From: a virus | Length of the DNA: 64,000 nt | IMG/VR virus record: IMGVR_UViG_3300030943_000007 | Span: 1 to 64,000 of that record | Strand: one strand, 5' to 3' | Program-made: the position numbers and the translations under genes | The notes under the pieces: generated by a model | The model's input: only the letters and a program-made list of their open reading frames with translations | What the model was told of the DNA's origin: nothing | Databases searched by the model: none | In this document: positions 4,179 through 45,259 of the stretch, piece after piece | How positions within the stretch are numbered: the stretch's first letter is position 1 | Layout of the letters: each line of letters begins with the position of its first letter

Positions 4179-4427
4179 TCAGTTCCCCTTGGAGCTGCGC
4201 TGGGCTTCCCAGCTGGTGAGCTGGGTCTTCTGGATGTCTTCGGGGAGGGCGTCGAACTCGTCGACCTCCATGAGGTAGCCGGACTTGAACTCGGAGCCCT
4301 GCGTGTCCAGCAGGGGACCGTAGGGGGTGACCGAGCCCTGCACACGCAGCATGTCGGTGATGGCAGCGGACCTGCCCGCGAGGAAGGCGGGGGTGGTCAC
4401 AAGCGTCTGGTACACGTGGTTCGTCAT
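4179..4427 (-). CDS. Unknown small protein, leaderless transcript (82 aa)
   Basis: The ATG at 4427 lies seven bases after the -10 TAAGAT of promoter P4 in the context TAAGATAGAGACATG, so the mRNA should begin at or next to the start codon. There is no room for a ribosome-binding site. Leaderless mRNAs are common in Actinobacteria. The product (MTNHVYQTLVTTPAFLAG) has no recognised motif. It heads a four-gene early unit. Confidence 0.7.
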   Translation of the reverse strand: MTNHVYQTLVTTPAFLAGRSAAITDMLRVQGSVTPYGPLLDTQGSEFKSGYLMEVDEFDALPEDIQKTQLTSWEAQRSSKGN

Positions 4428-4433
4428 GTCTCT

Positions 4434-4478
4434 ATCTTAGGACCTGTCTCTACCTTATGTCAAGTAGTTTCGGGAAAG
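4434..4478 (-). promoter_or_regulatory. Early promoter P4 with operator
   Basis: The -35 TTGACA is at 4458-4463, the -10 TAAGAT at 4434-4439 with an 18-bp spacer, and the operator GTTTCGGGAAAG is at 4467-4478 (one mismatch). The -35 includes the stop codon of the upstream gene. A second -10-like TAAGGT lies between the elements. Confidence 0.85.
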
Positions 4479-5598: not shown

Positions 5599-6000
5599 TT
5601 AGCCCACAATCCGGGGGTTGAGGACGGCGTCGCCGTCGTAGTCGAGGGCCAGCAGGAACTTGTTCAGCATGGAGGCGTAGATGTCGTCCAGCTGGAAGTG
5701 GACGGTGTCGCCGACCACGGAGCGGCGGGCGGCGTAGCGCACGTCGATGTTGTAGAGGTCGTTGGAGTTCAGGGTGACCGTGACCCGCATGATCCGGGCG
5801 GAGGAGCCCCGAGTGCCGTCCTTGCGGAAGGCGATGATCTTGGCGAGGAAGGTGTAGCCGGGGAGGAAGAGCCCAGTGCCGGGCTCGTTGGACGAGACGG
5901 CAGCGGAGTGGAAGCCGAGGCTCATCTTCACGCCGGTCTGGATCAGGCGGCTGATCTCGGCTGCCACCTCGTGGGCGGCGACGGTGTCGGTGCGGTTCAT
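5599..6000 (-). CDS. Unknown protein, leaderless transcript (133 aa)
   Basis: The ATG at 6000 follows the P5 -10 by the same AGAGAC spacing seen at P4, giving a leaderless mRNA. The N-terminal 35 residues look helical and the rest beta-rich, with LPGYTFLAKIIAFRK and RVTVTLNSNDLYNIDV. No known domain is recognised. It is the first gene of the P5 unit, which runs on through the genes at 5315-5596 and 4936-5313. Confidence 0.7.
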   Translation of the reverse strand: MNRTDTVAAHEVAAEISRLIQTGVKMSLGFHSAAVSSNEPGTGLFLPGYTFLAKIIAFRKDGTRGSSARIMRVTVTLNSNDLYNIDVRYAARRSVVGDTVHFQLDDIYASMLNKFLLALDYDGDAVLNPRIVG

Positions 6001-6006
6001 GTCTCT

Positions 6007-6050
6007 ATCTTAGGACTAGGTTGGGCAGATGTCAACACGTTTCAGGAAAC
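6007..6050 (-). promoter_or_regulatory. Early promoter P5 with perfect operator
   Basis: The -35 TTGACA (6030-6035) and -10 TAAGAT (6007-6012) are 17 bp apart, with a perfect palindrome GTTTCAGGAAAC at 6039-6050. The operator centre lies about 44.5 bp upstream of the predicted start at 6000. Confidence 0.87.
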
Positions 6051-6290
6051 GAGCCTCAGCTCCCTTGGCAGGCGGTAGATGAACCGGAGCCTCTTGGGCC
6101 CACCCGCTGACAGCTCGATGACCAAGTCTCCGATGTTGAAGACCCGCCCGTACAGGCGGATGGGGCGCTCGTTCACAGTGAAGGGCTGGACCACCGGCAG
6201 GAGGCGCTTGTGTCCGTAGACCGTGGTCTCTACCAGCTCCCCCACCAGCGGCCACCACTCGTCCTCGGTGACCGGGGGAAGCTCAGGCAT
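6042..6290 (-). CDS. Unknown small protein (82 aa)
   Basis: The ATG at 6290 overlaps the end of the upstream gene by eight bases. The product (MPELPPVTEDEWWPLVGELV) is a compact beta-rich domain with an NIGDLVIELSAGG turn and a basic C-terminus. No family is recognised. Its stop codon and last codons are formed by the P5 operator sequence. Confidence 0.65.
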   Translation of the reverse strand: MPELPPVTEDEWWPLVGELVETTVYGHKRLLPVVQPFTVNERPIRLYGRVFNIGDLVIELSAGGPKRLRFIYRLPRELRLVS

Positions 6291-6588
6291 GGTTCAGGCA
6301 CCACGTCGCCATCATCTCCAGCTCGCGGGGCCACATAGGCATGGCCGTGCGCCCGGTCGCGCCGATGTCCTCGTAGAGGTAGTCGCGATCCACCGCTGCG
6401 CCGGAGGCCAGTGAGGCGAGGGCGCTGCCGACAGTGCCGGAGGACTGCCACCACGACGCGATGGTCTTGGCTGCCGCGTCGGACAGCTCACCGTTCTCCG
6501 TGGGGATGGTGCCGAGGGCGACGGCGAGGATCTCGTGCCGGGCCTGCTCGGATGAGGCTGCGGGCTCGGTGATCTGGATGCTGGCCAT
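6283..6588 (-). CDS. Unknown small helical protein (101 aa)
   Basis: The ATG at 6588 has an AGGAGG-like site upstream (CAACAGGAGGAACC) and lies downstream of P6. The sequence is Ala/Ser-rich and helical, with WWQSSGTVGSALASLASG and a closing helix WPRELEMMATWCLNHA. No recognised motif. Together with the next gene it forms a two-gene early unit. Confidence 0.65.
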   Translation of the reverse strand: MASIQITEPAASSEQARHEILAVALGTIPTENGELSDAAAKTIASWWQSSGTVGSALASLASGAAVDRDYLYEDIGATGRTAMPMWPRELEMMATWCLNHA

Positions 6589-6627
6589 GGTTCCTCCTGT
6601 TGTGCAAGCTGACCGCTTGATGTCTCT

Positions 6628-6657
6628 AGCTTAGGCCATGGAGATGTCCCAAGTCAA
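6628..6657 (-). promoter_or_regulatory. Early promoter P6
   Basis: TTGACT (6652-6657) and TAAGCT (6628-6633) are separated by 18 bp and followed by the same AGAGACATCAAGCGG stretch as P1 (A for the first base in both). No GTTTC palindrome adjoins it, so it may be constitutive or differently controlled. Confidence 0.7.
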
Positions 6658-7139: not shown

Positions 7140-7568
7140 TCAGACGCAGTCGGTGTCGGCGAGCAGGTTCGGCTCGCGCTTGGGCATGTCCTGTGCGGCG
7201 GCGCGGATGTCGGGCCTCGGCTGGCACGCCTCCTCATCGGAGATCGGCTTGACGTCCAGCTCTGCACCGTTGAGGGAGATGGCTCCGACGGGGATCCCCA
7301 GCAGCATCTCCAGCACGATGTCGGCGTTGTCCACCACCCCGTAGCGTGGGTGCCGCCCATGCCCCTGAAGCTCCCCATTCTGCAACTGCCCCAAGGTGAT
7401 GATCTGCTCAGGCCTGAGGCGAACCCCCATCAGGGTGGCCTGCCTCTTGACCCACCCGGCCTGCGGTGAGTTGGCGACGATCATGATGGCATCGGGATCG
7501 GCTGCGGTCAGCTTGATCATCTCGGAGGTCTTGCCTCCGGCGCGGCCCCTGACCACGACCCGGATCAT
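7140..7568 (-). CDS. Small P-loop-like protein (142 aa)
   Basis: The ATG at 7568 overlaps the TGA of the gene before. The N-terminus VVVRGRAGGKTSEMIKL is a glycine-rich loop ending in GKT at residues 12-14, close to the RGRxGGKT type of phage ATPases, followed by an alternating strand pattern (AIMIVANS). GVVDNADIVLEMLL could supply the acidic Walker B residue. At 142 residues it is much shorter than usual ATPases. The C-terminal third is acidic and Pro-rich. It may be a nucleotide-binding accessory protein or a reduced remnant of a larger P-loop enzyme. Confidence 0.55.
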   Translation of the reverse strand: MIRVVVRGRAGGKTSEMIKLTAADPDAIMIVANSPQAGWVKRQATLMGVRLRPEQIITLGQLQNGELQGHGRHPRYGVVDNADIVLEMLLGIPVGAISLNGAELDVKPISDEEACQPRPDIRAAAQDMPKREPNLLADTDCV

Positions 7569-7786
7569 ACGACCACCTCAGTTCCGAGATCCACGATGAA
7601 GCGGATCTCCTCACCGTCAGACTCGACCGTGACCACGTCGTCGAACGTGCGGTTCGGGATGCTCGCAGCAATCAGGTACTGCTGGACCCCAGCGAGCATC
7701 TTGGACACCTCAGCCCAGTTGCTGGGTGTCGGCAGGAAGAAGACCTTCTGGGTGGAGCGCTCGATGCGCTCGGAGTAGTTGGCCAT
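7565..7786 (-). CDS. Unknown small protein (73 aa)
   Basis: The ATG at 7786 overlaps the TGA of the upstream gene. MANYSERIERSTQKVFF leads into a helix and two short strands (VVTVESDGEEIRFIVDLG). No motif is recognised. Coupling on both sides supports translation. Confidence 0.65.
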   Translation of the reverse strand: MANYSERIERSTQKVFFLPTPSNWAEVSKMLAGVQQYLIAASIPNRTFDDVVTVESDGEEIRFIVDLGTEVVV

Positions 7787-8097
7787 CAGGCCTCCTCAGA
7801 ATCATCTTCGGTGTTGACGGTGATCGTGTACTGGCCATCGAGCCGGATCCACTGCTCGCCGGAGCCGAACACGGGGGCGGCGCAGATCGTGTCCCGGCGC
7901 AGGTCGAGGTCCGACAGCTGGGCGTCCCGGTACACCATGGTGGCGTTCGGAGCGGCGAGGAGGGCCACCTTGCCGTCTTCCAAGAGGATCTCCATGGTCA
8001 GGCTCAGGCCCCTGATCGGGGGCTGTGCCGAGACGAAGCCCTGAGGCAAGTGGGTGTCCCTGTGGTGCAGCTGAGCTGCCTCGAATCCCTCGGCCAT
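7786..8097 (-). CDS. Unknown protein (103 aa)
   Basis: The ATG at 8097 overlaps the stop of the NADAR gene as TGATG; the upstream extension is rejected for that reason. The chain has a polar His-rich start (LHHRDTHLP) and a beta-rich body with SLTMEILLEDGKVALLAAP and YTITVNTEDDSEEA. No family is recognised. Its strict coupling to the NADAR gene makes a joint role possible, without direct evidence. Confidence 0.65.
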   Translation of the reverse strand: MAEGFEAAQLHHRDTHLPQGFVSAQPPIRGLSLTMEILLEDGKVALLAAPNATMVYRDAQLSDLDLRRDTICAAPVFGSGEQWIRLDGQYTITVNTEDDSEEA

Positions 8098-8585
8098 CAG
8101 AAGTCCTTCGGGTGCTGGAGGATGGTGCGCCGGGCCATGAGCAGCTCGCCCAGCATGTTGATGCCCTTGCCGCCACAGGTGCGCCGGGTGCACAGGCAGC
8201 TCCCCCAGAAGTTGTCGTGCCAGTCGTTGATCTCGATCAGCATGGTGCTGTCCGTGTCGATGAGCATGGCCGCGAGGTTGGGCAGGATGGGGCGGAAGGG
8301 GAGGCTGAACTTGGCCGAGATGACCATGGACATGGCTGCCACACGGCCACCTGCTTCCCAGCCCTCCCGCAGGGGTGCCTTCCGGCCCAGCCCCTTGGCC
8401 TGCCCCGGGGTCGTTGCCTTCAGGATGGCCTCACGGGTGGCCGTATCGACCGTCTTCAGGGCGTTGTAGGCGTGCTCCCCTGTGGGAGCCATCATGCCCA
8501 GCCTGCCTATCCACAGGGGCTGCTCGTAGAAGTTCGACAGGAAGAAGTAGTCACCCCGGAACCCAGACTCGGTGAAGCTAGCCAT
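8097..8585 (-). CDS. NADAR family protein (YbiA-like, 162 aa)
   Basis: The sequence follows the NADAR (YbiA/RibX) fold from end to end. It opens with FLSNFYEQPLWIG, continues with the PTGEHAYNALK segment that carries the family glutamate, then GRKAPLREGWE, and closes with GINMLGELLMARRTIL. The length of 162 residues is normal for a single-domain member. NADAR proteins cleave N-glycosidic bonds in ADP-ribose-type metabolites, and members have been shown to remove ADP-ribose from guanine in DNA; phage-borne copies are linked to escape from DarT-type DNA ADP-ribosylation. I infer a counter-defence role here. It is coupled to the MazG-like gene upstream (8585 shared) and to an unknown gene downstream. 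Confidence 0.85.
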   Translation of the reverse strand: MASFTESGFRGDYFFLSNFYEQPLWIGRLGMMAPTGEHAYNALKTVDTATREAILKATTPGQAKGLGRKAPLREGWEAGGRVAAMSMVISAKFSLPFRPILPNLAAMLIDTDSTMLIEINDWHDNFWGSCLCTRRTCGGKGINMLGELLMARRTILQHPKDF

Positions 8586-9049
8586 CAGAGTTCGTCCAGC
8601 AGGATGTCGATGTCGCTGACCACGCCGGACTCATCGTTTTCGGAAACGTCCTTGACGTGGGAGATGGTGCCGGTGTCGTTGAGCTGCCACGTCCGGGCGA
8701 GGTTGACCAGCAGCTTCTCCTGCACGGCGTTGGCGAGGTCCTCGATGGTGTAGCCCTCGAAGGTCAGCTGGGACGCCAGCACGATGAGCACGTCGGCGGC
8801 TTCCTTCAGCTTCTCGTCGGTGTCGTGCTCGGCCTCAAGGAACTCGGTGACCTCCTCGGGCAGCTTCAGCTCGGGCTGGGCGGTGGTGTGCGTGGCGTAG
8901 AGCGCGACCCACTCCACCAGTGTCTTCTGGACCTCGTCCCAGATGGCGGCGCGGGAGAGCTTGGCGGCGACGGCGTCGGCGATCTCAGCGGCAAAGAGCG
9001 GAGGGTTCTCGACGGTCATGACGATGTTGAGGGTTGCAGGATGTGCCAT
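8585..9049 (-). CDS. MazG-like nucleotide pyrophosphohydrolase (154 aa)
   Basis: A helical all-alpha protein with the MazG/dUTPase-like metal motifs: LPEEVTEFLE (residues 64-72, the EExxE motif) and KEAADVLIVL (82-91, ExxD), followed by helices containing VQEKLLVN. Such enzymes hydrolyse nucleoside triphosphates to monophosphates, and phage versions are thought to lower alarmones or unwanted dNTPs. The ATG at 9049 is placed directly behind the GGCGTACCAGTAGGT element with no ribosome-binding site. An operator-like palindrome lies inside the 3' end at 8636-8647. Confidence 0.75.
   Translation of the reverse strand: MAHPATLNIVMTVENPPLFAAEIADAVAAKLSRAAIWDEVQKTLVEWVALYATHTTAQPELKLPEEVTEFLEAEHDTDEKLKEAADVLIVLASQLTFEGYTIEDLANAVQEKLLVNLARTWQLNDTGTISHVKDVSENDESGVVSDIDILLDEL
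8636..8647. promoter_or_regulatory. Intragenic operator-like palindrome
   Basis: GTTTTCGGAAAC has one mismatch and lies within the MazG-like coding sequence. Confidence 0.6.
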
Positions 9050-9064
9050 ACCTACTGGTACGCC
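9050..9064 (-). promoter_or_regulatory. Start-associated element GGCGTACCAGTAGGT
   Basis: This 15-base element is followed immediately by the ATG at 9049. Four further copies lie at 12263, 21941, 26723 and 28662, always just before middle or accessory genes on the same strand. Confidence 0.65.
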
Positions 9065-9083: not shown

Positions 9084-9093
9084 GTCGATCTTC
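9084..9093 (+). promoter_or_regulatory. Late element on the plus strand
   Basis: GTCGATCTTC followed by AGAGACATG matches the late element with the same six-base spacing to the ATG as the copies at 57594 and 10815. It is the only copy on the plus strand and lies before the only plus-strand gene. Confidence 0.7.
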
Positions 9094-9099
9094 AGAGAC

Positions 9100-9249
9100 A
9101 TGTGCAACCACGAAGGAACCCCCGCCTGTGGATGGACGCTCGTCTGCCACCAGAAGGCAGGCCACCCCGGCTCCCATCAGGCCTACTGGTCCGACCGACT
9201 GTGGGAATGGGACACAGCCCCGCTCCTCGTAGGCGCAGCTAAGCCCTGA
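9100..9249 (+). CDS. Lone rightward small Cys/His-rich protein (49 aa)
   Basis: This is the only convincing plus-strand gene. The ATG at 9100 follows the late element GTCGATCTTC by six bases, with no ribosome-binding site, which suggests a leaderless late transcript. The product starts MCNHEGTPACGW and continues LVCHQKAGHPGSHQAYW; four cysteine or histidine pairs in the first 28 residues look like a small zinc finger (CxxH, C, CHQ, GHPGSH). The TGA at 9247-9249 lies within the left arm of a strong hairpin that also ends the endolysin transcript. Function unknown; it may be a late regulator or a host-targeting peptide. Confidence 0.7.
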   Translation: MCNHEGTPACGWTLVCHQKAGHPGSHQAYWSDRLWEWDTAPLLVGAAKP

Positions 9250-9283
9250 CTCCCCTACGGGGGGGATTAGGGGAGTCAGGGCT
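9242..9283. terminator. Bidirectional terminator, 16-bp stem
   Basis: Perfect 16-base arms (9242-9257 and 9268-9283) enclose a 10-base loop. The hairpin lies between the endolysin stop (9310) and the plus-strand gene, so it can end both converging transcripts. No long U tract follows on either strand. Confidence 0.8.
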
Positions 9284-9309: not shown

Positions 9310-10671
9310 CTACCGATGAGCGTTCAGGTACTTCTGGAAAGCAGTCGAGGTCTTGGGACCCCAGTCGCCGTCCTTGGACACACCGATCTTGGACTGCAAC
9401 GCTCCGATGACACCGGAGTTCAGGACGTCACCGTCGCTGTAGCCGAGCCACTTGCGGAGCGCGCGGTAGGTCTGGCCCCCGGTCTGGCCATCGATCTCGA
9501 CCCCGAGGAACTCCTGCACCCGCTTCCACGACTTGGTGCCGAAGTCACCGTCCACCGCGAGTGCGGCGGGCTTGCCGTAGGCCGACAGGAACGCCCGGTA
9601 GGCCGACAGTCGAGCGTCCCAGCCAGCCGGGTACTTCTCGCCGGAGGCGGTGCCCATGTTGACGGCGGTCTGGACCCTCTGGAAGTCGCCGGAGTTGCCG
9701 TAGCCCCACAGCTTGCGCGCTGAGAAGTACCAGATGCCTCCGACCCACGCCCACCCGAGCTTGCCGAGTTCATCCGGGTGGTCGACGAACAGGTTGGCGT
9801 CGGTGATGAGACCCCGGCTCTTGGCCCAGACCCCGAACGCCGCGTAGTTGTCCTTCCACGTGATCTGCTCGAACGACCGGCCCCGGTAGGGGTCGTAGCG
9901 CTTCTTGTCCGCGCCGTACTCGACGGTCGTGGCCAGCCATGCAGACTCCTGAAGCATCGTGCCGACCCACGCAGCGACGCCGTGACGGGTCAGCTTCTGA
10001 CCCTTCAGCGCCACAGTGGCCATGGCCGCGAGGTCCTTCAGCGAGGTGGCGGTGTAGACCCGCTCACCCTTGGCGTTGTACCCGGTGCAGACCTTCGCGC
10101 GGACGGTGCTCGAACCGGCAGCCTTGAGTGCGGCAGCCAGCTGGGCCTCGGTGATGACGATGCCGGGGACCACGACAGGCACCGGCTTGGTGACGGTGGT
10201 GTACTGCGGGCGGATGATGTAGGTCCAGCCACCGGGGCGGTTCGCCAAGGTCCTGAAGCCGACCTCCTTGCCCGTCTGGTCTCCAGCCTTGCCACCGGAT
10301 GCGCGGCCACGCTCGTCCTGATGGGCCGAGAACATCTTGGTCTCGCTGTAGACGAACTCGACGTGATGGCCCGGGGTCAGGAGGAAGTCGCCGACCTTGA
10401 CCTGCGACATCGACTCGAACCGGATGACCTTGCAGCCAGCGGCCTTCATCTTGATGGCGTAGTTGCCGGTGTAGAACGTGCCGGACAGGACGACCGGGAT
10501 ACCGGCCTCCTTGGCGATGGCTCCACACACGGTCGAGCAGTCACCCTCGGTGGCTCCGAGCACGAGCTTGCCGTTGCGGTAGAAGTCCCACCGTTCGCCT
10601 TGGTCGTAGCCGATGTTGGCGACCTTGTCGAGCCGCAGGCAGAAGGCCTGTGCGTCCGCGAGGAGGATCAT
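9310..10671 (-). CDS. Endolysin: cysteine peptidase/amidase, GH19 and peptidoglycan-binding domains (453 aa)
   Basis: Three parts can be read. Residues 1-160 resemble a phage amidase of the CHAP/NlpC type, with GDCSTVCGAIAKEAG supplying the cysteine and PGHHVEFVYS the histidine. After a Val/Pro linker, residues about 215-345 match a GH19 chitinase/lysozyme fold: MLQESAWL contains the likely catalytic Glu near 238, and YRGRSFEQITWKDNYAAFG is the conserved core. The C-terminal 95 residues hold two peptidoglycan-binding repeats (VDGDFGTKSWKRVQ and SKDGDWGPKTSTAFQ). The enzyme would cut peptide and glycan bonds of the host wall. The ATG at 10671 overlaps the stop of a small acidic gene. Confidence 0.9.
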   Translation of the reverse strand: MILLADAQAFCLRLDKVANIGYDQGERWDFYRNGKLVLGATEGDCSTVCGAIAKEAGIPVVLSGTFYTGNYAIKMKAAGCKVIRFESMSQVKVGDFLLTPGHHVEFVYSETKMFSAHQDERGRASGGKAGDQTGKEVGFRTLANRPGGWTYIIRPQYTTVTKPVPVVVPGIVITEAQLAAALKAAGSSTVRAKVCTGYNAKGERVYTATSLKDLAAMATVALKGQKLTRHGVAAWVGTMLQESAWLATTVEYGADKKRYDPYRGRSFEQITWKDNYAAFGVWAKSRGLITDANLFVDHPDELGKLGWAWVGGIWYFSARKLWGYGNSGDFQRVQTAVNMGTASGEKYPAGWDARLSAYRAFLSAYGKPAALAVDGDFGTKSWKRVQEFLGVEIDGQTGGQTYRALRKWLGYSDGDVLNSGVIGALQSKIGVSKDGDWGPKTSTAFQKYLNAHR

Positions 10672-10808
10672 TCCGGCATCCCGTCGGTGCCCTCGATGGA
10701 GGGGTCGGCAGGCGGCTGGTTGGCTTCGAGTTCCTCGTCGGAGATCTCTTCGTCTTCGATCTCTTCGACCGGCTCAAGCTCGGGACTCAGTGCAGGGTCT
10801 ATGGACAT
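10668..10808 (-). CDS. Small acidic protein before the endolysin (46 aa)
   Basis: The frame starts with an ATG at 10808, six bases after the late element at 10815, and ends in a TGA overlapping the endolysin ATG (AATGA). About a third of the residues are Asp or Glu, with EPVEEIEDEEISDEELEAN in the centre. There is no hydrophobic stretch and no ribosome-binding site, so translation probably begins on a leaderless mRNA and couples to the endolysin. Function unknown; roles such as endolysin timing are speculation. Confidence 0.65.
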   Translation of the reverse strand: MSIDPALSPELEPVEEIEDEEISDEELEANQPPADPSIEGTDGMPE

Positions 10809-10814
10809 GCCATA

Positions 10815-10825
10815 GAAGATCGACC
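10815..10825 (-). promoter_or_regulatory. Late element before the lysis genes
   Basis: GGTCGATCTTC differs from GGCCGATCTTC at one base and stands six bases before the ATG at 10808. Confidence 0.65.
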
Positions 10826-10830
10826 TAGCT

Positions 10831-11178
10831 CTAGCCCAGCACCTTGACCATGCCGTTGGGCAGCGGCTTCTCGGCCACGACCACCTTGACCGGCTCCTGA
10901 TCCATGAAGACCGCTGCGACCTCCCTCAGGAGGGCTCCAATGCCCCTCAGGCTCTCCGGGAGCGTGTCCCCTGCCGCCAGTCCACCTGCGGTGACGTCGA
11001 CCACTGTGGCCCCGTCTGGGTCCGTGCCGAAGCGCATCAGGATGGTGGGAGGCAGGCCGTCACCGAGGGTGATGTCGGTCTTGGCGATCTTGCCCGAGCC
11101 GGTGGGGTAGACAGCTCCCCGGACCCGCCATGCGACAGGCTCCAGCGGGATGTTTTCCTCGGCGTGCTTCTTGCTCAT
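10831..11178 (-). CDS. Unknown protein (115 aa)
   Basis: The ATG at 11178 overlaps the previous stop as TGATGA. The product (MSKKHAEENIPLEPVAWRV) is beta-rich in the first 70 residues, with a Thr/Gly-rich VVDVTAGGLAAGD turn, and helical near the C-terminus (LRGIGALLREVAAVFM). No family is recognised. It is co-transcribed with the 173-residue protein upstream. Confidence 0.65.
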   Translation of the reverse strand: MSKKHAEENIPLEPVAWRVRGAVYPTGSGKIAKTDITLGDGLPPTILMRFGTDPDGATVVDVTAGGLAAGDTLPESLRGIGALLREVAAVFMDQEPVKVVVAEKPLPNGMVKVLG

Positions 11179-11699: not shown

Positions 11700-12262
11700 T
11701 GGAGCACGTCCACGACAACACCCTTGACGCAGTAGACCCACGTCTCGGCGTTGAAGGGGCTCAGGGGCAGGAAGCCCAGCGTGACACAGGCTGCCTGTGC
11801 GTCGGCCTTGGAGGGGGTTCCCGGTTCGCCGCTGGTGTTGGTCACCGACATCACGTCGCCCTTGACGCAGACCCACTGGTTGTTGTCGCCGACGAAGACA
11901 CGGTTCCCGCCCGTGGCGCACTCCGAGACGAACTCGTTGCGGTGGGTGGCCTTCTCGTCGAGGGTGGCCAGCACGGACTGGATGAAGACCGCAGCTCCGA
12001 ACGCGGCGAACAGCAGGACGATCCACACCCCGATCCGGTTGACCATCTTCAGCATGAACTTGCGGCGGTCTGCCCTGTCCTGAATCAGTGCATTGCTCCG
12101 GTCGGCGGCGACCGTGTGCTCAGCGGCCATGGAGTCGTGCTCAGCAGCAGCCGCGTGCTGCTCGGTGACGGACGCATCCACCACCGCCGCCACGGCCTTC
12201 TCCACGGTTGCTTCCACGGCCTTGGATGGGGTCACAGTCCCCGGGTGGTCTTCATTGCTCAT
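11696..12262 (-). CDS. Single-pass membrane protein with helical N-terminus (188 aa)
   Basis: I place the start at the ATG at 12262, directly behind the 15-base element GGCGTACCAGTGAGT, rather than the GTG six bases earlier. Residues 10-65 are Ala/Glu-rich and helical, 77-98 form a transmembrane segment (VWIVLLFAAFGAAVFIQSVL), and the C-terminal domain carries three cysteines (SECATGG, WVCVKGD, YCVKG) and probably lies outside the membrane. Its place next to the holin cluster suggests an envelope or lysis-related role, not proven. Confidence 0.7.
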   Translation of the reverse strand: MSNEDHPGTVTPSKAVEATVEKAVAAVVDASVTEQHAAAAEHDSMAAEHTVAADRSNALIQDRADRRKFMLKMVNRIGVWIVLLFAAFGAAVFIQSVLATLDEKATHRNEFVSECATGGNRVFVGDNNQWVCVKGDVMSVTNTSGEPGTPSKADAQAACVTLGFLPLSPFNAETWVYCVKGVVVDVLQ

Positions 12263-12277
12263 ACTCACTGGTACGCC
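12263..12277 (-). promoter_or_regulatory. Start-associated element GGCGTACCAGTGAGT
   Basis: One of five copies of the 15-base element; it joins directly to the ATG at 12262. Confidence 0.65.
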
Positions 12278-12357: not shown

Positions 12358-12897
12358 TCAGGTCAGTGGGGGGTCCTCTTCGTCCACCGACGCGGCCCGC
12401 TCCGGGGCGTAGTCCTCAACAATCTCAACCGTAGGGATGCTGTTGTTCGTGATGACGATGGTCCCTGCGGGAGCGACCACGACTGCCGGGGAGGAGGCCA
12501 CGTTCACACCGGGGATGACGATCAGGGAAGCCTGCATGGCAGTGGCTGCTGCGGAGGCGAAAGCGCCCAGCAGGAGGGTCGTCCACGGCACGTTCTCAAC
12601 CAACAGGATGGTGCCAATGCCAGCGATCATGAACTGGGTGAACTGGCGGATGAACCTGCTGCCAAGGATCTCCCAGAAGCCCGCATTGGGTCCCGGTTCA
12701 GGGAGCCCCTTGAAGGAGGTCAGCACGGTGATGATCAGGACCAGAACGACCTGCGACACCACCGCCAGCGGGAGGATGGGGATGCCTGCGGAGTAGGCCA
12801 GCAGGAAGGGGAACACTGCCGCCACGAAGGTGCGGAACAGTGCGAAGCCGATTCCTTTCCAGAAATCCGGCGTGAGCAGTACGGACAGGGATGTCAT
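12358..12897 (-). CDS. Holin with four predicted membrane helices (179 aa)
   Basis: Hydrophobic segments lie at about residues 17-38, 41-62, 85-101 and 106-127, followed by a soluble acidic tail ending VDEEDPPLT. The size, topology and place two genes before the endolysin fit an actinophage holin, which forms membrane lesions at the time of lysis. The ATG at 12897 has AGAGGA upstream, and the late element at 12938-12948 lies 40 bases before it. Confidence 0.75.
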   Translation of the reverse strand: MTSLSVLLTPDFWKGIGFALFRTFVAAVFPFLLAYSAGIPILPLAVVSQVVLVLIITVLTSFKGLPEPGPNAGFWEILGSRFIRQFTQFMIAGIGTILLVENVPWTTLLLGAFASAAATAMQASLIVIPGVNVASSPAVVVAPAGTIVITNNSIPTVEIVEDYAPERAASVDEEDPPLT

Positions 12898-12937: not shown

Positions 12938-12948
12938 GAAGATCGACT
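12938..12948 (-). promoter_or_regulatory. Late element before the holin
   Basis: AGTCGATCTTC matches the core TCGATCTTC of the late element. It overlaps the stop codon of the upstream membrane protein. Confidence 0.6.
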
Positions 12949-13487
12949 CAGCGGTGATCCTCGAAGAGAGTGGGCTGGAGGTGACCTGCCCGAGCAGTGA
13001 CGATCATCTCGGCGGCGTTGTCGCTGGCCTTCTCCAGCAGGTCGGCCAAGATCACCGGGACGTTCTCCAAGTGCTCGTTCAAGGCCCCCTGAGTTTCCTT
13101 CATCCCGGAAGTAAGAGAGGCGACATCGACCTGTGTTTTGGCCACTCCTTCATTGAGAGTGGCGACCTCCTTGCGGAGGTTCTGTAGCTCTTCTGCGAGC
13201 TTCAGTTCGGAGCCATGGTTCGGGGTCACCTGCGACTCGATGGCTTCCAGCTTGGCGGTGTTCTTGATGATCTCGTCGCCGTGATCCTTGAGGGTGGCCA
13301 TGACCCCGGGACGCCCATCGACACCCTTCCGGTCAGGCTCTCCGTTCCAGTCCTCGAAGAAATGCTTGAGTCCCACAGCCAACGGGGAAACGAACCTCCA
13401 CGCAGCCACGATGGCCCCGATCCCGACCAGAACAACAAAGATCTGACCGACAGTTATGTCCGCCAACCACTGCGGGATGTTGGACAA
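12948..13487 (-). CDS. Membrane protein with coiled coil, DUF2746-like (179 aa)
   Basis: The best start is a TTG at 13487 eight bases after AGGAGG; a GTG at 13517 in the same frame lacks a ribosome-binding site. Residues 12-30 form one transmembrane helix (FVVLVGIGAIVAAW). HFFEDWNGEPDRKGVDGRPG follows, a pattern I know from a family of actinophage membrane proteins located by the lysis genes. Residues 75-130 are a coiled coil with regular heptads. It may be a second holin, a spanin-like protein or a holin partner. Confidence 0.7.
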   Translation of the reverse strand: MSNIPQWLADITVGQIFVVLVGIGAIVAAWRFVSPLAVGLKHFFEDWNGEPDRKGVDGRPGVMATLKDHGDEIIKNTAKLEAIESQVTPNHGSELKLAEELQNLRKEVATLNEGVAKTQVDVASLTSGMKETQGALNEHLENVPVILADLLEKASDNAAEMIVTARAGHLQPTLFEDHR

Positions 13488-13521
13488 GTTGGACCCCTCC
13501 TGAATGTGCTTTCCCACCTCA

Positions 13522-13532
13522 GAAGATCGGCC
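13522..13532 (-). promoter_or_regulatory. Late element GGCCGATCTTC
   Basis: A perfect copy 34 bases upstream of the TTG start at 13487, opening the lysis region. Confidence 0.7.
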
Positions 13533-21940: not shown

Positions 21941-21955
21941 ACTTACTGGTACGCC
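21941..21955 (-). promoter_or_regulatory. Start-associated element GGCGTACCAGTAAGT
   Basis: This copy begins right after the stop of the clamp-loader delta-like gene and precedes the small membrane protein and DNA polymerase genes. Confidence 0.6.
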
Positions 21956-26601: not shown

Positions 26602-26722
26602 CCAGTAGTCCCATCTTCTTGGCCAGCCATGCGAGTGGGAGCACGATGAAGAGGTACACCATGCCGTAGAGAATCGAGAAGATGGCCTCAAGGCCTCCCT
26701 CGCCGTCGTCGTAATCGCTCAT
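26594..26722 (-). CDS. Small single-pass membrane protein (42 aa)
   Basis: The ATG at 26722 is joined directly to the element GGCGTATCAATAGGT. The sequence starts MSDYDDGEGGLEAIF, has a hydrophobic segment at residues 13-34 (YGMVYLFIVLPLAWLA), then a lysine pair and LLDD. The acidic start, membrane helix and basic edge make a credible single-span protein. It overlaps the next gene by eight bases. Function unknown. Confidence 0.65.
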   Translation of the reverse strand: MSDYDDGEGGLEAIFSILYGMVYLFIVLPLAWLAKKMGLLDD

Positions 26723-26737
26723 ACCTATTGATACGCC
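26723..26737 (-). promoter_or_regulatory. Start-associated element GGCGTATCAATAGGT
   Basis: A copy with two changes from the commonest form; the spacing to the ATG is the same as at 9049 and 12262. Confidence 0.6.
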
Positions 26738-28661: not shown

Positions 28662-28676
28662 ACTTACTGGTACGCC
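28662..28676 (-). promoter_or_regulatory. Start-associated element GGCGTACCAGTAAGT
   Basis: One of five copies, 18 bases before the ATG at 28643. The GTG at its end opens a seven-codon leader frame. Confidence 0.6.
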
Positions 28677-28700: not shown

Positions 28701-29447
28701 TCAGGAGCGCGCAGTCTGGACCATGGCGGCGTGGATCAGCAGGATCTGCTGCTGGTGGGTGACCTTGACGGTGGACACGCTGGAGCCCAGCTCGGCGGCG
28801 ATCTGGGGGAAGCTCATGCCCATGTAGTACCGCAGGACGATGACCGACTTCTCGAACGACGGCATCCCCTCCATGACCTCGACCATGGCCTCCTGAAGCA
28901 TGTGGGCTGCGACTGATCCCTCGGTGCCTCCCTCAGCTGGGGGAGCCATGTTGCCCCGGTCGCTGTCGCCTGCCATGTCGTCCAGTGAGACCGGGGGGCA
29001 CTCGACTGCGTGGGTGATCGCACGGACCCGGTTGACGTCGATCCCGAGGATCTCTGCGGTCTCCTCAGGGCTCCTGCCGGGGGCCAGCTCCTGCATGTCC
29101 TTGTAGATGGTGCGCTGCCTGCGGGGGACGTGGTCCAGCTGGCGCATCCAGTCCTGAATGGCTCCCCCGATGCGGCGCTTGGCGTACTGGCCGAACGTCA
29201 GTGCAACAGGGGGCAGCGCCACGTCCGGGTCGTTCTCCGGGACGATGTTGGGTTCGTACCTCTGGGCGGCGGTGATCAGCCCCTGATAGGCGATGGCCAC
29301 GATCTCGTCGCGGTCCACTTCCGATGCGGCTCGTTTCCAGAAAGACATTGCAATGCTCTGGGCAAGGCCCACGTGGGTCCTGACCAACTCGCTCTGGTAG
29401 TCGGAGAGGGGGACGGGGGTGGCGGCGGTCATTGTCACTGCTTTCAT
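28701..29447 (-). CDS. Sigma factor of the FliA/WhiG/SigB type (248 aa)
   Basis: Region 2 is clear: DEIVAIAYQGLITAAQRYEP and FGQYAKRRIGGAIQDWMRQL followed by DHVPRRQR, the FliA/WhiG signature (RIRGAI, LR, PR). Region 3 has EETAEILGIDVNRVRAI, and region 4 has FEKSVIVLRYYMGMSFPQIA and STVKVTHQQ. All three domains are present at normal length. The -10 of this class is GCCGATAA, and the phage late element contains GCCGAT, so it probably drives late genes. The ATG at 29447 overlaps the helicase stop; an ATG at 29432 is possible. Confidence 0.88.
   Translation of the reverse strand: MKAVTMTAATPVPLSDYQSELVRTHVGLAQSIAMSFWKRAASEVDRDEIVAIAYQGLITAAQRYEPNIVPENDPDVALPPVALTFGQYAKRRIGGAIQDWMRQLDHVPRRQRTIYKDMQELAPGRSPEETAEILGIDVNRVRAITHAVECPPVSLDDMAGDSDRGNMAPPAEGGTEGSVAAHMLQEAMVEVMEGMPSFEKSVIVLRYYMGMSFPQIAAELGSSVSTVKVTHQQQILLIHAAMVQTARS
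29333..29344. promoter_or_regulatory. Intragenic operator-like palindrome
   Basis: GTTTCCAGAAAG has one mismatch and lies near the 5' end of the sigma factor gene. Confidence 0.55.
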
Positions 29448-40007: not shown

Positions 40008-40847
40008 CTAGTCGAAGTACGCGGGACGCCACTTGATGATTGCCTGACCGGAGCCAGCATCCCGGGTCAGTGTCACAATGTTGCTTCCGGAGGCGAGTCC
40101 GAACCATTGCCGCATACCCGAACGCGTGACCGCTCCAATCAGGTTCGCCCCGTCGGAATCGCGTCTTGCAGACATCTTGTCCACGTCCAAGGTCACTGTA
40201 TCGGCAATAGCGACCGAAGACCCCAACTTGACCCAGTTCTGGGGGGCGAATGTTGCATTGGTGAGGACCGGGTTGGTCAGCTGACCCTCGAAGTCCATCG
40301 TGATCTTGTGGGTGCGCGCGTCCCCGGGGTTGGCGATCACGACCGTCTCCCCCGCCTCGACCACGGTGGTCTGCTCCTCACCGAAGAACAGGCCCTCCAG
40401 CATGAGCAGGTCGACGGAGAAGGTGGCGTGCGCGTTGCCCTGCATGGTGGGGGCCATGACCCCGGTGTTCTCCACCAGTGCGGAGGCGGACATGACCTCG
40501 AAGGTGTCCGGATCGATCCAGCGCTTGGTCAACGTGAAGGGCATCGAGTCGTCCCTCCAGAAGAGCTGGCGCAGGGCCCTCCAGTTCTTCTGGAACTCCA
40601 GCTCGGTGCTGCGGGCCGTAGGAGCCCCGCCGTCAGCCGTGGAGCCCTGTACCCACATGGACAGCGACAAGGCCTTGGAATCGATGGTCTTGGCCTTGTG
40701 GAAGGTGCCCGGGTAGTAGGCGAGGTTCACGTTGGAGCCCCGGAAGTTGGCGACGCCGCTGCGGCCTGTGAGGGTGCGGATGTTCCATGCGAAGTTCTGG
40801 ATCGAGACGCCGTCCACATCCCAGTAGACCGGGGTCGTGTTGGTCAC
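40008..40847 (-). CDS. Distal tail protein (279 aa)
   Basis: The GTG at 40847 overlaps the tape-measure stop. The order strand-rich N-terminus (YWDVDGVSIQNFAWNIRTL), WRALRQLFWRDDSMPF, VMSASALVENTG, then the GEQ and NPGDARTHKITMDFEG segments is characteristic of distal tail (Dit-like) proteins placed after the tape measure in siphoviruses. It forms the ring joining tail tube and tip complex. Confidence 0.75.
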   Translation of the reverse strand: MTNTTPVYWDVDGVSIQNFAWNIRTLTGRSGVANFRGSNVNLAYYPGTFHKAKTIDSKALSLSMWVQGSTADGGAPTARSTELEFQKNWRALRQLFWRDDSMPFTLTKRWIDPDTFEVMSASALVENTGVMAPTMQGNAHATFSVDLLMLEGLFFGEEQTTVVEAGETVVIANPGDARTHKITMDFEGQLTNPVLTNATFAPQNWVKLGSSVAIADTVTLDVDKMSARRDSDGANLIGAVTRSGMRQWFGLASGSNIVTLTRDAGSGQAIIKWRPAYFD

Positions 40848-43800
40848 TTGAAGTCACCTGCGTTCAGTCCGAGATGGGCGAGCTGCTGGGTCTTGGTCGT
40901 CAGCGAGTTGGTCGCACGCTCAGGCACCGGGTTCTGGATGATGACGTCGCCGAAGGTCACGCTGTTGACCGTGGTGTTGCCACCGCCCCCGAAACTCGGG
41001 CCCCTGCCGCCACCGGGTGAGTTGGTGGGTGCCATGGTCGGCACGAGACCGCCACCGTTGAAGACCAGCTGGCTGCCACCGTCCTTGGGCTTGCGCGAGG
41101 AGCTGGCGGCTGCCGCGAGCAGCTGGGCGTAGGACATGACGCCCGAGTTGAGCTTGACGAGGTTGTCGATCCCGACCCTGTCGACGATGCCCTTGCGGAC
41201 GACGAACTCACCGGGAGTGAGTCGTGCTGCCACGGTGTCGCTGTTGCCATGTCCGGGGACGCCGCCACCACCCGCACGGTGGATCTCTCCGCCGTTGTGG
41301 GGCGTCTGGGTACCGTCGCCATGCCCTGCACCGAACCCTGCTCCGGCGTTGCCCCAGAAGTCCGTCCACCACTTGCCAATGGTGTTCTTGACGCCGTCCC
41401 ACCAACGGCCCCACGCGGTGCTCACACTGTCGACGAAGTCGGTGGCGATCTTGGCCAGATCCCTGCCGAAGCCGGGGAGCGTCACGTTCCAGAACTTGTC
41501 CCACATGGGACCAATGCCGGAGACCCACTTCTGGATCTGCGCCTTGGCGTTGGCCAGCCACTTCGGGAAGGTGACTGCCCAGAAGTTGTTCCACGCTGGG
41601 CCGATGCTGGAGATCCACGAGCGGACGGCAGCCGACGCGCTGGAGATCCACGCGGGGAAGGTGACCGTCCAGAAGGTGGTCCATGCCACCCCGATACCTG
41701 CGAACCACTGGGTGACGGCTGCGGATGCCTGCGTGACCCACAGCGGGAAGGTGACCGTCCAGAAGGTGGTCCACGCCGCTCCGATGCCTGCGAACCACTG
41801 ACCCACTGCCAGCGTGGCGCTGGTGACCCACTTCGGGAAGGTCTCGGTCCAGAAGGTGGTCCATGCCGGGCCGATGCCCTCGAACCACTTGACGGTGGCT
41901 CCCAAGGCGTACCCCGCCCAGTAGGGGAACGTCTTGGTCCAGAAGTCGGTCCACGAGGTGCCAAGGTCGTCGAACCACTTGGTGGCCCCAGCGCCGAGGT
42001 CGTTCCAGAACTTGGGGACCTGCACCCCCCAGTACTCATCCCACAGCTTGCCGAAGTCGCCGAACCACTTGCTGATGCCCCCGGTGAGGTCGTTCCAGAA
42101 CTTGGGGACCTGCACCCCCCAGTACTCATCCCACAGCTTGCCGAAGTCGCCGAACCACTTGCTGATGCCCCCGGTGAGGTCGTTCCACCACTTGGGGAGG
42201 GTGGTGCCCCAGAACTCGTTCCACCCCTTGACGAAGTCGGTGAAGAACTGGTCGATGTCCTCCTTGGCGGAGCCGAAGAATCCCACGAGGGCTCCGATGA
42301 GCCCACCGATGATCGCGCCGGGGACTGCCCCGATGCCACCGAACAGCAGGCCGACAGAGCCACCGATGCCTGCGCCTGTGGCTGCCCCGGAGAGGGTGTT
42401 GCCTCCGAGCCGCTGGCCGGATCCGTCCTTGCCCTCGGGGGCGTTGTTCGAGATGACGTCGCCCACGATGGTGCCCAGAATCGACGCGATGGCCGCGAGC
42501 GGGCCACCTGCACCCTTCAGGATCGACGCGAACCCCTTGAGGCTACCGAACCCCTTGATCAGGGTGGAGAAGCCCTTCAGACCTCCCCCGGAGAGGAGGA
42601 CCTTGAAGCCATCGAGCAGGCTGCCTAGCCACTTGAAGCCCTTCAGCCCACTGAGGAGCTTGGGCAGCCCCTTGAACAGGCCGAACAGCTTGCCGAGCTT
42701 TCCGAAAAGGAACTTGGCTCCGTCGGCGATCCCATAGAACATCGCCTTGATGAAGCTGAGTCCGGTGTACCGCTTCCCGGTGATGCCGAAGAGCTTCATC
42801 AGGACGGTCTTCAGCGACTCGAAGAACTTGAGGATGCCACCGGTCTTGTAGAGCTTGATCAGCCACCCGATGAGGTTCTCAAGGCCGGTGAACTTGGCCA
42901 CGAAGGACATGGCTCCGATAGCTGCGGCGGCTCCGATGAGCATCTGGAGGACGGGGCCGATGACTGGCATCTTGATGACGGTCAGCAGGATGTCGAGGAG
43001 CCCGTTCAGGGTGTCGAAGAAGACCGCAGTGCCGGGGCCATCCACCAGTGTGGTGATCAGGTCGACGATCTTGATCAGCGAGTCCACGAACTTGGGGCCA
43101 ATGTTGGCCTTGCTCAGGGCATCGAACAGTGACGCCAGCTTGGGACCAAGATCGTCGGTGATCTTCTTGAAGATCTCCGTCATCTGCTTGATGTTCTTCG
43201 GGTCGGCAGCCTGCTTGCCGAACCACTTGAAGAAGGTGCCGAACATCCGGGAGATCTCGGACAGGAGGGGCTTGATGTCCTCAAGCCATTTCTTGAAAGG
43301 AGATCCCTTCTTGGTGGCTGCCTCGGAGGACGCCAGCCAGCCCTCGGTGGTCTTCTGGATACCGTCGGTGATCCAACCACCGAACGCCTCCGCCGCCTTG
43401 GCGAAGTTGAACAGGGTCTTGGCGATGTTCTTGATGATCTGCCACCACTGGCGCAGCGTCCCGAGGACACCCTTCGACCCGGTCTCCTTGTCACCCATCA
43501 GCCACTTGCTGAGGGACCCGCTCTTGCGGGCCTCCTTGACCATGGCCGCGATGTTCTCGGCACCCTTCTTGAACCCCTTGGCGAGTTCGATCAGGAATGG
43601 CATCGCGATGACGGTGAGGTCCTTGAAGACGCCCCACAGGACGTTCAGCCCGCCACCGATGGCGTGGATCAGAGGGACGTTCTGCTTGCCCAGCAGGATC
43701 AGGTCGCTCTTCCACTCCGGGGAGGAGATCATCCCGATGAACTCGTGGGCGACGTCGCCGAGCGCACCTGCGGTGTCAGACAGCAGGCTCTGGATGGTGG

Positions 43801-45259
43801 GCAGCATCGAGCGCAGCTTGCCGGTGTCGTTGACGATCTTGGAGAAGAAGGACTCCTGCACGGTCCTCTTGACCTTGGTCCACGCCTTGTCCATGGCGAG
43901 GATCGCCTCGACGAACTTGCGAGCCGAGGGGGAGAGCTTGGCCAGTGCGGCGGCGAGCGCGTTGTTGGCGGAGGCCCCACCACCGGAGGCCTTGGCGTCG
44001 CCCTTCTTGGCGTTGATCAGCGCGATCTGTGCGTCCCGCTGAGCCCAGATGGCATCGGTCAGGGCACGCTGGGCCATGATGACCGCCCGGTCACCCTTCA
44101 TGCCCTTCTTCTTCATGTCCTTCAGGTCATCCTGAAGTTTCGCGTTGTTGTCCTTGGCCTTCTGCTCGGCGGTCTTGGCGTCCTCGACGGCTGCCTGCGC
44201 GGCCATCTTCTCGGCCTTGGTCGAGTTCGGGTCGGCCAAGATCCGAGCGAGGTTCTTCTCCGCGTTCTCCCGCTGGGCGGTGAGGCGCTTCTCCGAGGCA
44301 GCTGCATCCTTGGCGGTCTGCTCCAGATCCTTCAGCCTCTGGAGGTAGTCCTTGCGGGCGTCGGCGAGATCCTCTTCAGCCCACTTCAGGTTCTCCGTGG
44401 CGCGGCGCAGGTTCTCCCGGGCGCGGGCGACCTTCTCGGCCTGCGAGATCTCGGCCTGTGAGCTTCCACCGCCGCCTCCGCCACCCCCACCTGAGGCTCC
44501 AGCCTTCTTCGCTGCCTTGAAGGCCGAGAACACCCCTCCGATGCCGCTGAAGGCCACCTTGAGGGCCCCGACGATGGAGAGCAGGGAGAACAGTGCCGGG
44601 ATGGCTGCGAGGGCCGCTCCGGCGACCTGACCGAGGCTGGAGGCCAGCCCGATGCCCGCGCCGCCCAGTGCGCCGATGCCTGCCACCAGAGGGTTCATCA
44701 GGGACAGCAGGCCAGCGATGATCGGGACCAACGCGATGAAAGGCGGCGTCAGCTTGGGTCGCCACTTGCCGAGCTTGTCGAAGCCGTTGTTGATCTTCTC
44801 GACCCACGGGACCGCGCGCTGCACCCCGCGCTGGAAGTTGGTCATCTTGGAGGCTGCCGGAGTCAGCGCCGCCCCGACGCGCTCGGTCTCGGTGGCCATC
44901 CTCCGCGCCTCACCAGCGTGCTTGGAGATCGTGGAGGTGGCGCTCTTGAGGACGGTGTCAGCCTTCGAGGTGGCATTCCCGAGGGCGCTCGCAGCAGCTC
45001 CACCCTCCTTGAGGACGGTGTTGTGATCCCGGTGCGCGTTGGCACTCTCGTGCACGGCGTTGGTGTCGTTGCTGATGGCCTTGGTGTGGCCCTGCGTGGC
45101 CGCTGTGGACGCCTTGGCCCCCGAGACGGACGCGGCGTTGAGGCCAGCCTCCTCGGCCTTCAGAGCCGCGATCTCAGCCTTGGCCTTGCGTGCCTCCCGG
45201 GCAACAGCGGAGAAGTCGGCAATGGCCTTGTAGATGACCCGAGTCTCGTTCTCAGCCAT
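40844..45259 (-). CDS. Tape measure protein (1471 aa)
   Basis: By far the longest tail gene, it follows the chaperone pair. Coiled-coil regions (residues 20-160, 300-420), hydrophobic membrane-like stretches near 205-260 and 960-1010, a series of about ten Trp-rich units of roughly 30 residues (WTTFWTVTFPLWVTQA type, residues about 1040-1320), and a C-terminal VAARLTPGEFVVRKG motif typical of actinophage tape measures. It sets tail length and is ejected with the DNA. The ATG at 45259 has AAAGGAGGTG upstream. An exact 90-bp tandem repeat lies at 42001-42180. Confidence 0.93.
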   Translation of the reverse strand: MAENETRVIYKAIADFSAVAREARKAKAEIAALKAEEAGLNAASVSGAKASTAATQGHTKAISNDTNAVHESANAHRDHNTVLKEGGAAASALGNATSKADTVLKSATSTISKHAGEARRMATETERVGAALTPAASKMTNFQRGVQRAVPWVEKINNGFDKLGKWRPKLTPPFIALVPIIAGLLSLMNPLVAGIGALGGAGIGLASSLGQVAGAALAAIPALFSLLSIVGALKVAFSGIGGVFSAFKAAKKAGASGGGGGGGGGSSQAEISQAEKVARARENLRRATENLKWAEEDLADARKDYLQRLKDLEQTAKDAAASEKRLTAQRENAEKNLARILADPNSTKAEKMAAQAAVEDAKTAEQKAKDNNAKLQDDLKDMKKKGMKGDRAVIMAQRALTDAIWAQRDAQIALINAKKGDAKASGGGASANNALAAALAKLSPSARKFVEAILAMDKAWTKVKRTVQESFFSKIVNDTGKLRSMLPTIQSLLSDTAGALGDVAHEFIGMISSPEWKSDLILLGKQNVPLIHAIGGGLNVLWGVFKDLTVIAMPFLIELAKGFKKGAENIAAMVKEARKSGSLSKWLMGDKETGSKGVLGTLRQWWQIIKNIAKTLFNFAKAAEAFGGWITDGIQKTTEGWLASSEAATKKGSPFKKWLEDIKPLLSEISRMFGTFFKWFGKQAADPKNIKQMTEIFKKITDDLGPKLASLFDALSKANIGPKFVDSLIKIVDLITTLVDGPGTAVFFDTLNGLLDILLTVIKMPVIGPVLQMLIGAAAAIGAMSFVAKFTGLENLIGWLIKLYKTGGILKFFESLKTVLMKLFGITGKRYTGLSFIKAMFYGIADGAKFLFGKLGKLFGLFKGLPKLLSGLKGFKWLGSLLDGFKVLLSGGGLKGFSTLIKGFGSLKGFASILKGAGGPLAAIASILGTIVGDVISNNAPEGKDGSGQRLGGNTLSGAATGAGIGGSVGLLFGGIGAVPGAIIGGLIGALVGFFGSAKEDIDQFFTDFVKGWNEFWGTTLPKWWNDLTGGISKWFGDFGKLWDEYWGVQVPKFWNDLTGGISKWFGDFGKLWDEYWGVQVPKFWNDLGAGATKWFDDLGTSWTDFWTKTFPYWAGYALGATVKWFEGIGPAWTTFWTETFPKWVTSATLAVGQWFAGIGAAWTTFWTVTFPLWVTQASAAVTQWFAGIGVAWTTFWTVTFPAWISSASAAVRSWISSIGPAWNNFWAVTFPKWLANAKAQIQKWVSGIGPMWDKFWNVTLPGFGRDLAKIATDFVDSVSTAWGRWWDGVKNTIGKWWTDFWGNAGAGFGAGHGDGTQTPHNGGEIHRAGGGGVPGHGNSDTVAARLTPGEFVVRKGIVDRVGIDNLVKLNSGVMSYAQLLAAAASSSRKPKDGGSQLVFNGGGLVPTMAPTNSPGGGRGPSFGGGGNTTVNSVTFGDVIIQNPVPERATNSLTTKTQQLAHLGLNAGDFK
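42001..42180 (-). repeat. Perfect tandem duplication of 90 bp in the tape measure gene
   Basis: Bases 42001-42090 and 42091-42180 are identical and encode two copies of a 30-residue unit (LWDEYWGVQVPKFWNDL part). A partial third copy flanks them. Exact identity points to a recent duplication that would lengthen the tail by one unit. Confidence 0.9.
43288..43299. promoter_or_regulatory. Intragenic operator-like site, perfect core
   Basis: ATTTCTTGAAAG keeps the TTTCNNGAAA core with both outer bases changed; inside the tape measure gene. Confidence 0.35.

Follow-up and report, generated by a model that had tools for sequence, protein, structure and literature searches.

A conserved 49-codon gene, read against its neighbours, adjoins the lysis genes of a phage in IMG/VR

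The rightward 49-codon gene that lies between the endolysin gene and a MazG-like gene of the virus IMGVR_UViG_3300030943_000007 belongs to a small gene family that is new, though ordinary in kind, and is tidily arranged; the first-pass annotation had described it nearly correctly. On comparison with a diverged relative, we hold with high confidence that it is a real, conserved protein-coding gene under purifying selection. Our preferred reading, which we think probable, is that of a moron-like single-gene late unit with a leaderless mRNA, encoding a small soluble zinc-binding lysis accessory of an actinobacterial-type phage. The window, here and below, is the whole stretch of 64,000 nucleotides that was analysed (positions 1 to 64,000 of the record). 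Its relevant features are collected in Table 1.

Table 1. Coordinates of the small rightward gene, its predicted signals and its neighbours in the window
Feature	Position	Strand	Evidence or remark
MazG-like nucleotide pyrophosphohydrolase (dATP-dGTP_PPHyd), divergent neighbour	8585-9049	-	PF04447, 24.9 bits (cut-off 23); conserved in L006
Element B, GGCGTACCAGTAGGTATG, promoter-like	9047-9064	-	overlaps the ATG of the divergent leftward gene
Element A, GTCGATCTTCAGAG, predicted late-type promoter	9084-9097	+	motif count, PWM, spacing; in L006 as TGTCGATCTTTACAGGCATG
CDS, 49-aa Cys/His/Trp-rich protein	9100-9249	+	ATG 9100, TGA 9247-9249; translation, L006 ortholog, L027 homologue
Perfect 16-bp hairpin with 10-nt loop, probable bidirectional terminator	9242-9283		pairing, fold z-scores, L006 counterpart
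Endolysin, convergent neighbour	9310-10671	-	PF25309, phrog_317; unrelated endolysin in L006
46-aa ORF preceding the endolysin	10668-10808	-	element A at 10811-10824, 14 nt before the ATG
179-aa ORF	12358-12897	-	element A upstream, ~12945
Holin-like gene	12948-13517	-	phrog_15431 holin, E 1.3e-9; element A directly upstream, 13518-13531
Sigma-factor-like protein	28701-29432	-	phrog_351, E 2.4e-20

The translated product of the frame is MCNHEGTPACGWTLVCHQKAGHPGSHQAYWSDRLWEWDTAPLLVGAAKP. Composition-based gene calling placed on the leftward strand all 74 genes called in the window and all 23 called in the next 18 kb (97 in 82 kb), so that the small gene is the sole rightward gene in that 82 kb. 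A second, longer contig from this virus (IMGVR_UViG_3300031521_000027; 13 kb overlap at 100% identity) carries a few genes called rightward about 5-6 kb beyond the left edge of the window. The one-direction rule is thus local: the earlier picture of a single reversed gene in a genome read one way holds for the window and the next 18 kb and fails for the virus as a whole. By codon score (-0.02 per codon) the 49-aa frame would not be called as a gene, although it outscores the other frames compared. Two other features of the window were noted along the way, a NADAR-domain gene (PF08719; 8097-8585, leftward), which may be linked to NAD/ADP-ribose metabolism or counter-defence, and a 90-bp in-phase repeat array at 41468-42208, within a 1471-aa gene (40844-45259).

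The coding status was assessed against L006 (IMGVR_UViG_3300030943_000020), a diverged relative that aligns to the window in blocks of 73-90% nucleotide identity. Its ortholog of the small gene (6001-6141, rightward) shares 80% amino-acid identity and differs in length only through the in-frame deletion of 9 nt close to its end. Third positions account for 14 of the 24 differences, and the NG86 estimates are dS 0.59 and dN 0.115, with dN/dS of 0.17-0.19. When the same substitutions were re-placed at random, the mean number of nonsynonymous codons was 15.3 against 8 observed, and none of 20,000 randomisations was as low. The frame at 80% identity, the in-frame deletion and a dN/dS of about 0.19 argue strongly that the gene is protein-coding. 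A check for frameshifts in relatives had been set beforehand; it was run, and the L006 frame is intact through the deletion. The alternative that the frame arose by chance between genes, and that the element upstream belongs elsewhere, would have in its favour the length of only 49 codons and the failure of the codon score to call it. Against it, the observed conservation was matched by none of the randomisations, which refutes it unless L006 is mis-assembled; element, spacing and frame are conserved together, and a homologue occurs in a third phage, L027. We give this explanation almost no credence. The first-pass judgement that the arrangement is too ordered for a chance frame is upheld by the conservation in L006 and not by the codon score.

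L006 retains more than the frame. The gene, element A, the 14-nt spacing and the stop codon within a hairpin are all kept, the upstream spacer has diverged, and the endolysin is replaced. Homology between the window and L006 ends at the hairpin (9286) and picks up again at 10838. This alignment indicates that the endolysin of L006 has been exchanged for an unrelated one, while the small gene, its predicted promoter and the hairpin stayed. Divergent from the L006 endolysin is a 387-aa rightward gene (7489-8652) that has no Pfam or PHROGs match and is absent from the window.

The element preceding the gene was found by listing the upstream regions of leftward genes, which yielded the recurrent form GGCCGATCTTC[AT]NNRG (element A). 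It occurs at nine leftward sites, 5' of protease/capsid-region and lysis genes, and at one rightward site. Allowing at most one mismatch, the motif GNCGATCTTCWRWR is found nine times in the window, where 0.73 occurrences would be expected, and only at 9084-9097 does it lie on the rightward strand. A PWM built from the nine leftward copies only ranks that copy top on the rightward strand of the 82 kb, and in Markov sequence two sites as good were found in 1.64 Mb. Counted from the C of CGATCTTC, the start codon lies 14 nt away in the small gene (9100, rightward), in the leftward genes that start at 10808 and 57587, and in the small gene and endolysin of L006 alike; the L006 copy before the small gene, TGTCGATCTTTACAGGCATG, thus stands at the identical spacing. 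The claim of a correctly spaced late element is confirmed by the motif rank and this shared spacing, and that of a small late gene also stands, on the understanding that the label "late" derives from the kinds of genes that bear element A. Within the lysis region (13.5-9.1 kb) there are four copies, belonging to the holin-like gene, the 179-aa ORF, the pair of 46-aa ORF and endolysin, and the small gene, and the fourth of these would drive the small gene from the opposite side.

A transcription start on the A of the ATG would put element A at -14 to -7, in a position resembling that of a -10 box. From the fixed 14-nt spacing, which places +1 on the ATG, we infer that the late mRNA of the small gene is leaderless. 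In mycobacteria, mRNAs that begin directly with ATG are both frequent and efficient (PMC4633059). The early-type promoters of the same phage (TTGACA, then TAAGAT-AGAGAC-ATG; 4427, 6000) have the same geometry as element A. Such early-type sites, in which AGAGACAT follows a TAAGAT-like box, were seen at 4427-4470, 6000-6040, 866-930, 1818-1880 and 6588-6640, two of the five with an ATG at the inferred start point. The sigma-factor-like protein of the phage may recognise one of its promoter classes; a relative with 42% identity, gp47 of the cultured Microbacterium phage Magritte, is annotated merely as "DNA binding protein".

A second promoter-like element was also examined. Element B, at first a candidate for the late element of the first-pass annotation, was later attributed to the leftward gene on the divergent side. 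It has the form GGCGTAYCA, 5-6 nt and ATG at leftward gene starts (9047-9064, 12260-12277, 21944-21955, 26720-26737 and 28665-28676), and more copies were seen at about 75-81 kb (L007) and in L013/L014. The GGCGTAYCA element also precedes several gene starts of Magritte (OR553905), and this sharing suggests a leaderless promoter class that is conserved between distant phages.

The TGA stop of the small gene lies inside the 5' arm of the hairpin, as it does in L006. The two arms (9242-9257 and 9268-9283) pair at 16 of 16 positions, in agreement with the first-pass description of a stop within a 16-bp hairpin that also faces the endolysin gene. Fold z-scores are -4.2 on the rightward and -6.3 on the leftward strand. 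This is the longest perfect hairpin in the 82 kb and its only perfect stem of at least 12 bp; five Markov genomes contained no perfect stem of at least 14 bp. The L006 counterpart has two broken pairs, and is imperfect yet stable. Among the features of an intrinsic terminator, the stable GC-rich hairpin between convergent genes is present, and a U-tract, sought after the stem, is absent; hairpin terminators without a U-tract have been reported from actinobacteria. Since two units converge on it, a bidirectional terminator of the small gene and the endolysin is the natural reading of the hairpin, and a probable one. The loop (9258-9267) includes a run of seven G on the rightward strand, and hence of C on the leftward, that is conserved in L006. 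This C7 loop of the leftward-strand hairpin is the point of likeness to 6C RNA (RF01066), an actinobacterial RNA with C-rich loops; as an identity for the hairpin, 6C RNA was rejected at 28.1 bits on the leftward strand against a gathering score of 47.

The convergence of the two units bears on antisense control, by which the rightward transcript would read through the hairpin, pair with the endolysin mRNA and delay lysis. The window and L006 both keep the convergence despite the exchange of the endolysin, as such control might lead one to expect, but the hairpin stands between the small gene and the endolysin. Moreover, the coding sequences do not overlap (9249 versus 9310), the unit ending 60 nt short of the endolysin stop. 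Because the unit stops before the endolysin coding sequence, because selection acts at the level of codons and hence on amino acids, and because the L027 homologue is co-directional with the lysis genes, the antisense transcript that had been suggested is not borne out, and we consider it very improbable.

The protein itself was examined across the three sequences found, from this virus, L006 and L027. Residues C2, C16, H22, H26, G21, G24, Q27, Y29, W30, D32, R33, L34, E36 and W37 are invariant, the match at C2 depending on a gapped alignment of the N-termini. Variation is seen at H4 and at H17 (C in L006, S in L027), and C10 is lost in L027. The Cys/His-rich gene of the first-pass annotation does have 49 codons; its first Cys/His pair is CxH here and CxxH in L006 only. 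The CxxH and CHQ patterns whose conservation had been proposed as a check are not the conserved ones, as H4 and H17 vary and C2, C16, H22 and H26 are kept throughout. These four invariant Cys and His residues suggest one metal site, and the product is probably a small soluble protein that binds one zinc ion via C2, C16, H22 and H26, with C10 as an alternative ligand. AlphaFold models were weak (mean pLDDT 57 and 62, with a low-confidence beta hairpin only), and therefore unfit for a fold search. The curated families of Pfam, NCBIfam and PHROGs and the PDB sequences gave no match above threshold; phrog_38750, a PHROGs family of unknown function, has a weak profile match to residues 4-38 in two of the three members, which at E 0.028 is not significant.

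The distant member came from a scan of IMG/VR with the pattern C-x4-G-H-x-G-x-H-x2-Y-W, which returned eight stretches. Three were kept (this virus, L006 and L027). L031 was set aside, as it lies within an ordinary gene of an unrelated phage, on the opposite strand, as were L024 and L028-L030, in which the rest of the family pattern is missing. L027 (IMGVR_UViG_3300048599_000067) encodes the homologue as a 45-aa ORF with 17 of 25 residues identical (TLxC...AGHxGSHQxYWxDRLxEW). The homology covers these 25 residues, and seven of the identities were fixed by the search pattern; the remaining ten in 18 positions are, by our estimate, far beyond chance. The homologue is the last gene of a co-directional operon that runs from an endolysin through a probable small membrane protein and a TM peptide to the homologue, which overlaps the preceding gene by ATGA and is followed by a strong hairpin. 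The L027 endolysin has VanY, PG-binding and exo/endonuclease-phosphatase-like parts, and is 49% identical to that of L006. In the 7.4 kb of L027 compared, only the lysis genes are common with L006, and nothing clear is common with the window. Thus the small gene adjoins lysis genes in three phages, once co-directionally. Profile scans of genomes and IMG/VR, whose reach is sequences that share short peptide stretches, found no further members. Among cultured phages, a DNA search with the 8-11 kb region gave no match and a protein search no significant one (best E about 1). Magritte is the nearest cultured relative by DNA polymerase (48% identity), and a homologue of the small gene was sought there and not found; the translation of its gp99, which is likewise small and reversed, proved unrelated.

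A moron, in the lambdoid definition, is a single extra gene with its own promoter and terminator (PMC1524935). The unit described here shares that anatomy, with one ORF that has predicted promoter and terminator signals on either side and is set between conserved modules, in an orientation independent of its neighbours. It could accordingly be a moron-type accessory with no part in lysis, that is, a small zinc protein for host takeover, superinfection or defence, which happens to occupy a site tolerant of new genes, the convergent edge of the lysis cassette. Its place at the boundary of a swapped cassette, marked by the interruption of homology with L006, and the failure to find a homologue in Magritte are consistent with this. 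In contrast, the predicted promoter belongs to the late class of the phage itself, the same as that of the lysis genes, and lysis genes adjoin the homologue again in L027. Morons are also expected to deviate in base composition and to be absent from close relatives, whereas the GC content of the gene (65.3%) equals that of the genome (64.5% for the window) and the gene is present in L006, the only close relative found. Conservation in a diverged relative implies that the insertion is not recent; as this and the GC content misfit a recent moron, we do not file the gene as one, and an accessory without a lysis function seems to us unlikely, if still a credible alternative. A second comparison is with small soluble genes of unknown function in the lysis cassettes of actinobacteriophages, such as gp21 and gp25 of Gordonia phage KappaFarmDelta (PMC9671378). 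These too are small non-membrane ORFs that adjoin endolysin and holin genes, a likeness in kind and position, but the gene here is inverted and has its own predicted promoter.

In the reading that we prefer, the lysis accessory, element A would serve as the -10 region of a late promoter of the phage, the mRNA would begin at or beside the ATG and be translated leaderless, and transcription would end in the hairpin, which would also halt transcripts that reach it from the endolysin side. The protein would then be made alongside the holin and the endolysin, whose genes carry the same element, and may serve as an accessory at the lysis stage. The lysis role is the weakest part of this proposal; adjacency to lysis genes is no proof of a part in lysis. 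A more ambitious version, in which the three proteins make up a new family of soluble, zinc-binding factors that time lysis, the cytosolic regulator being transcribed towards the endolysin from the same late promoter class and persisting through endolysin exchange, we regard as improbable.

A gene finder based on codon scores misses a gene so small and of such odd composition, and yet the promoter motif, its spacing, the terminator and a single relative were enough to recognise it. The gene points to an unnamed family of small proteins that accompanies lysis cassettes across otherwise dissimilar phages, and the constant 14 nt between the late element and the start codon suggests that leaderless late mRNAs are made in these phages.
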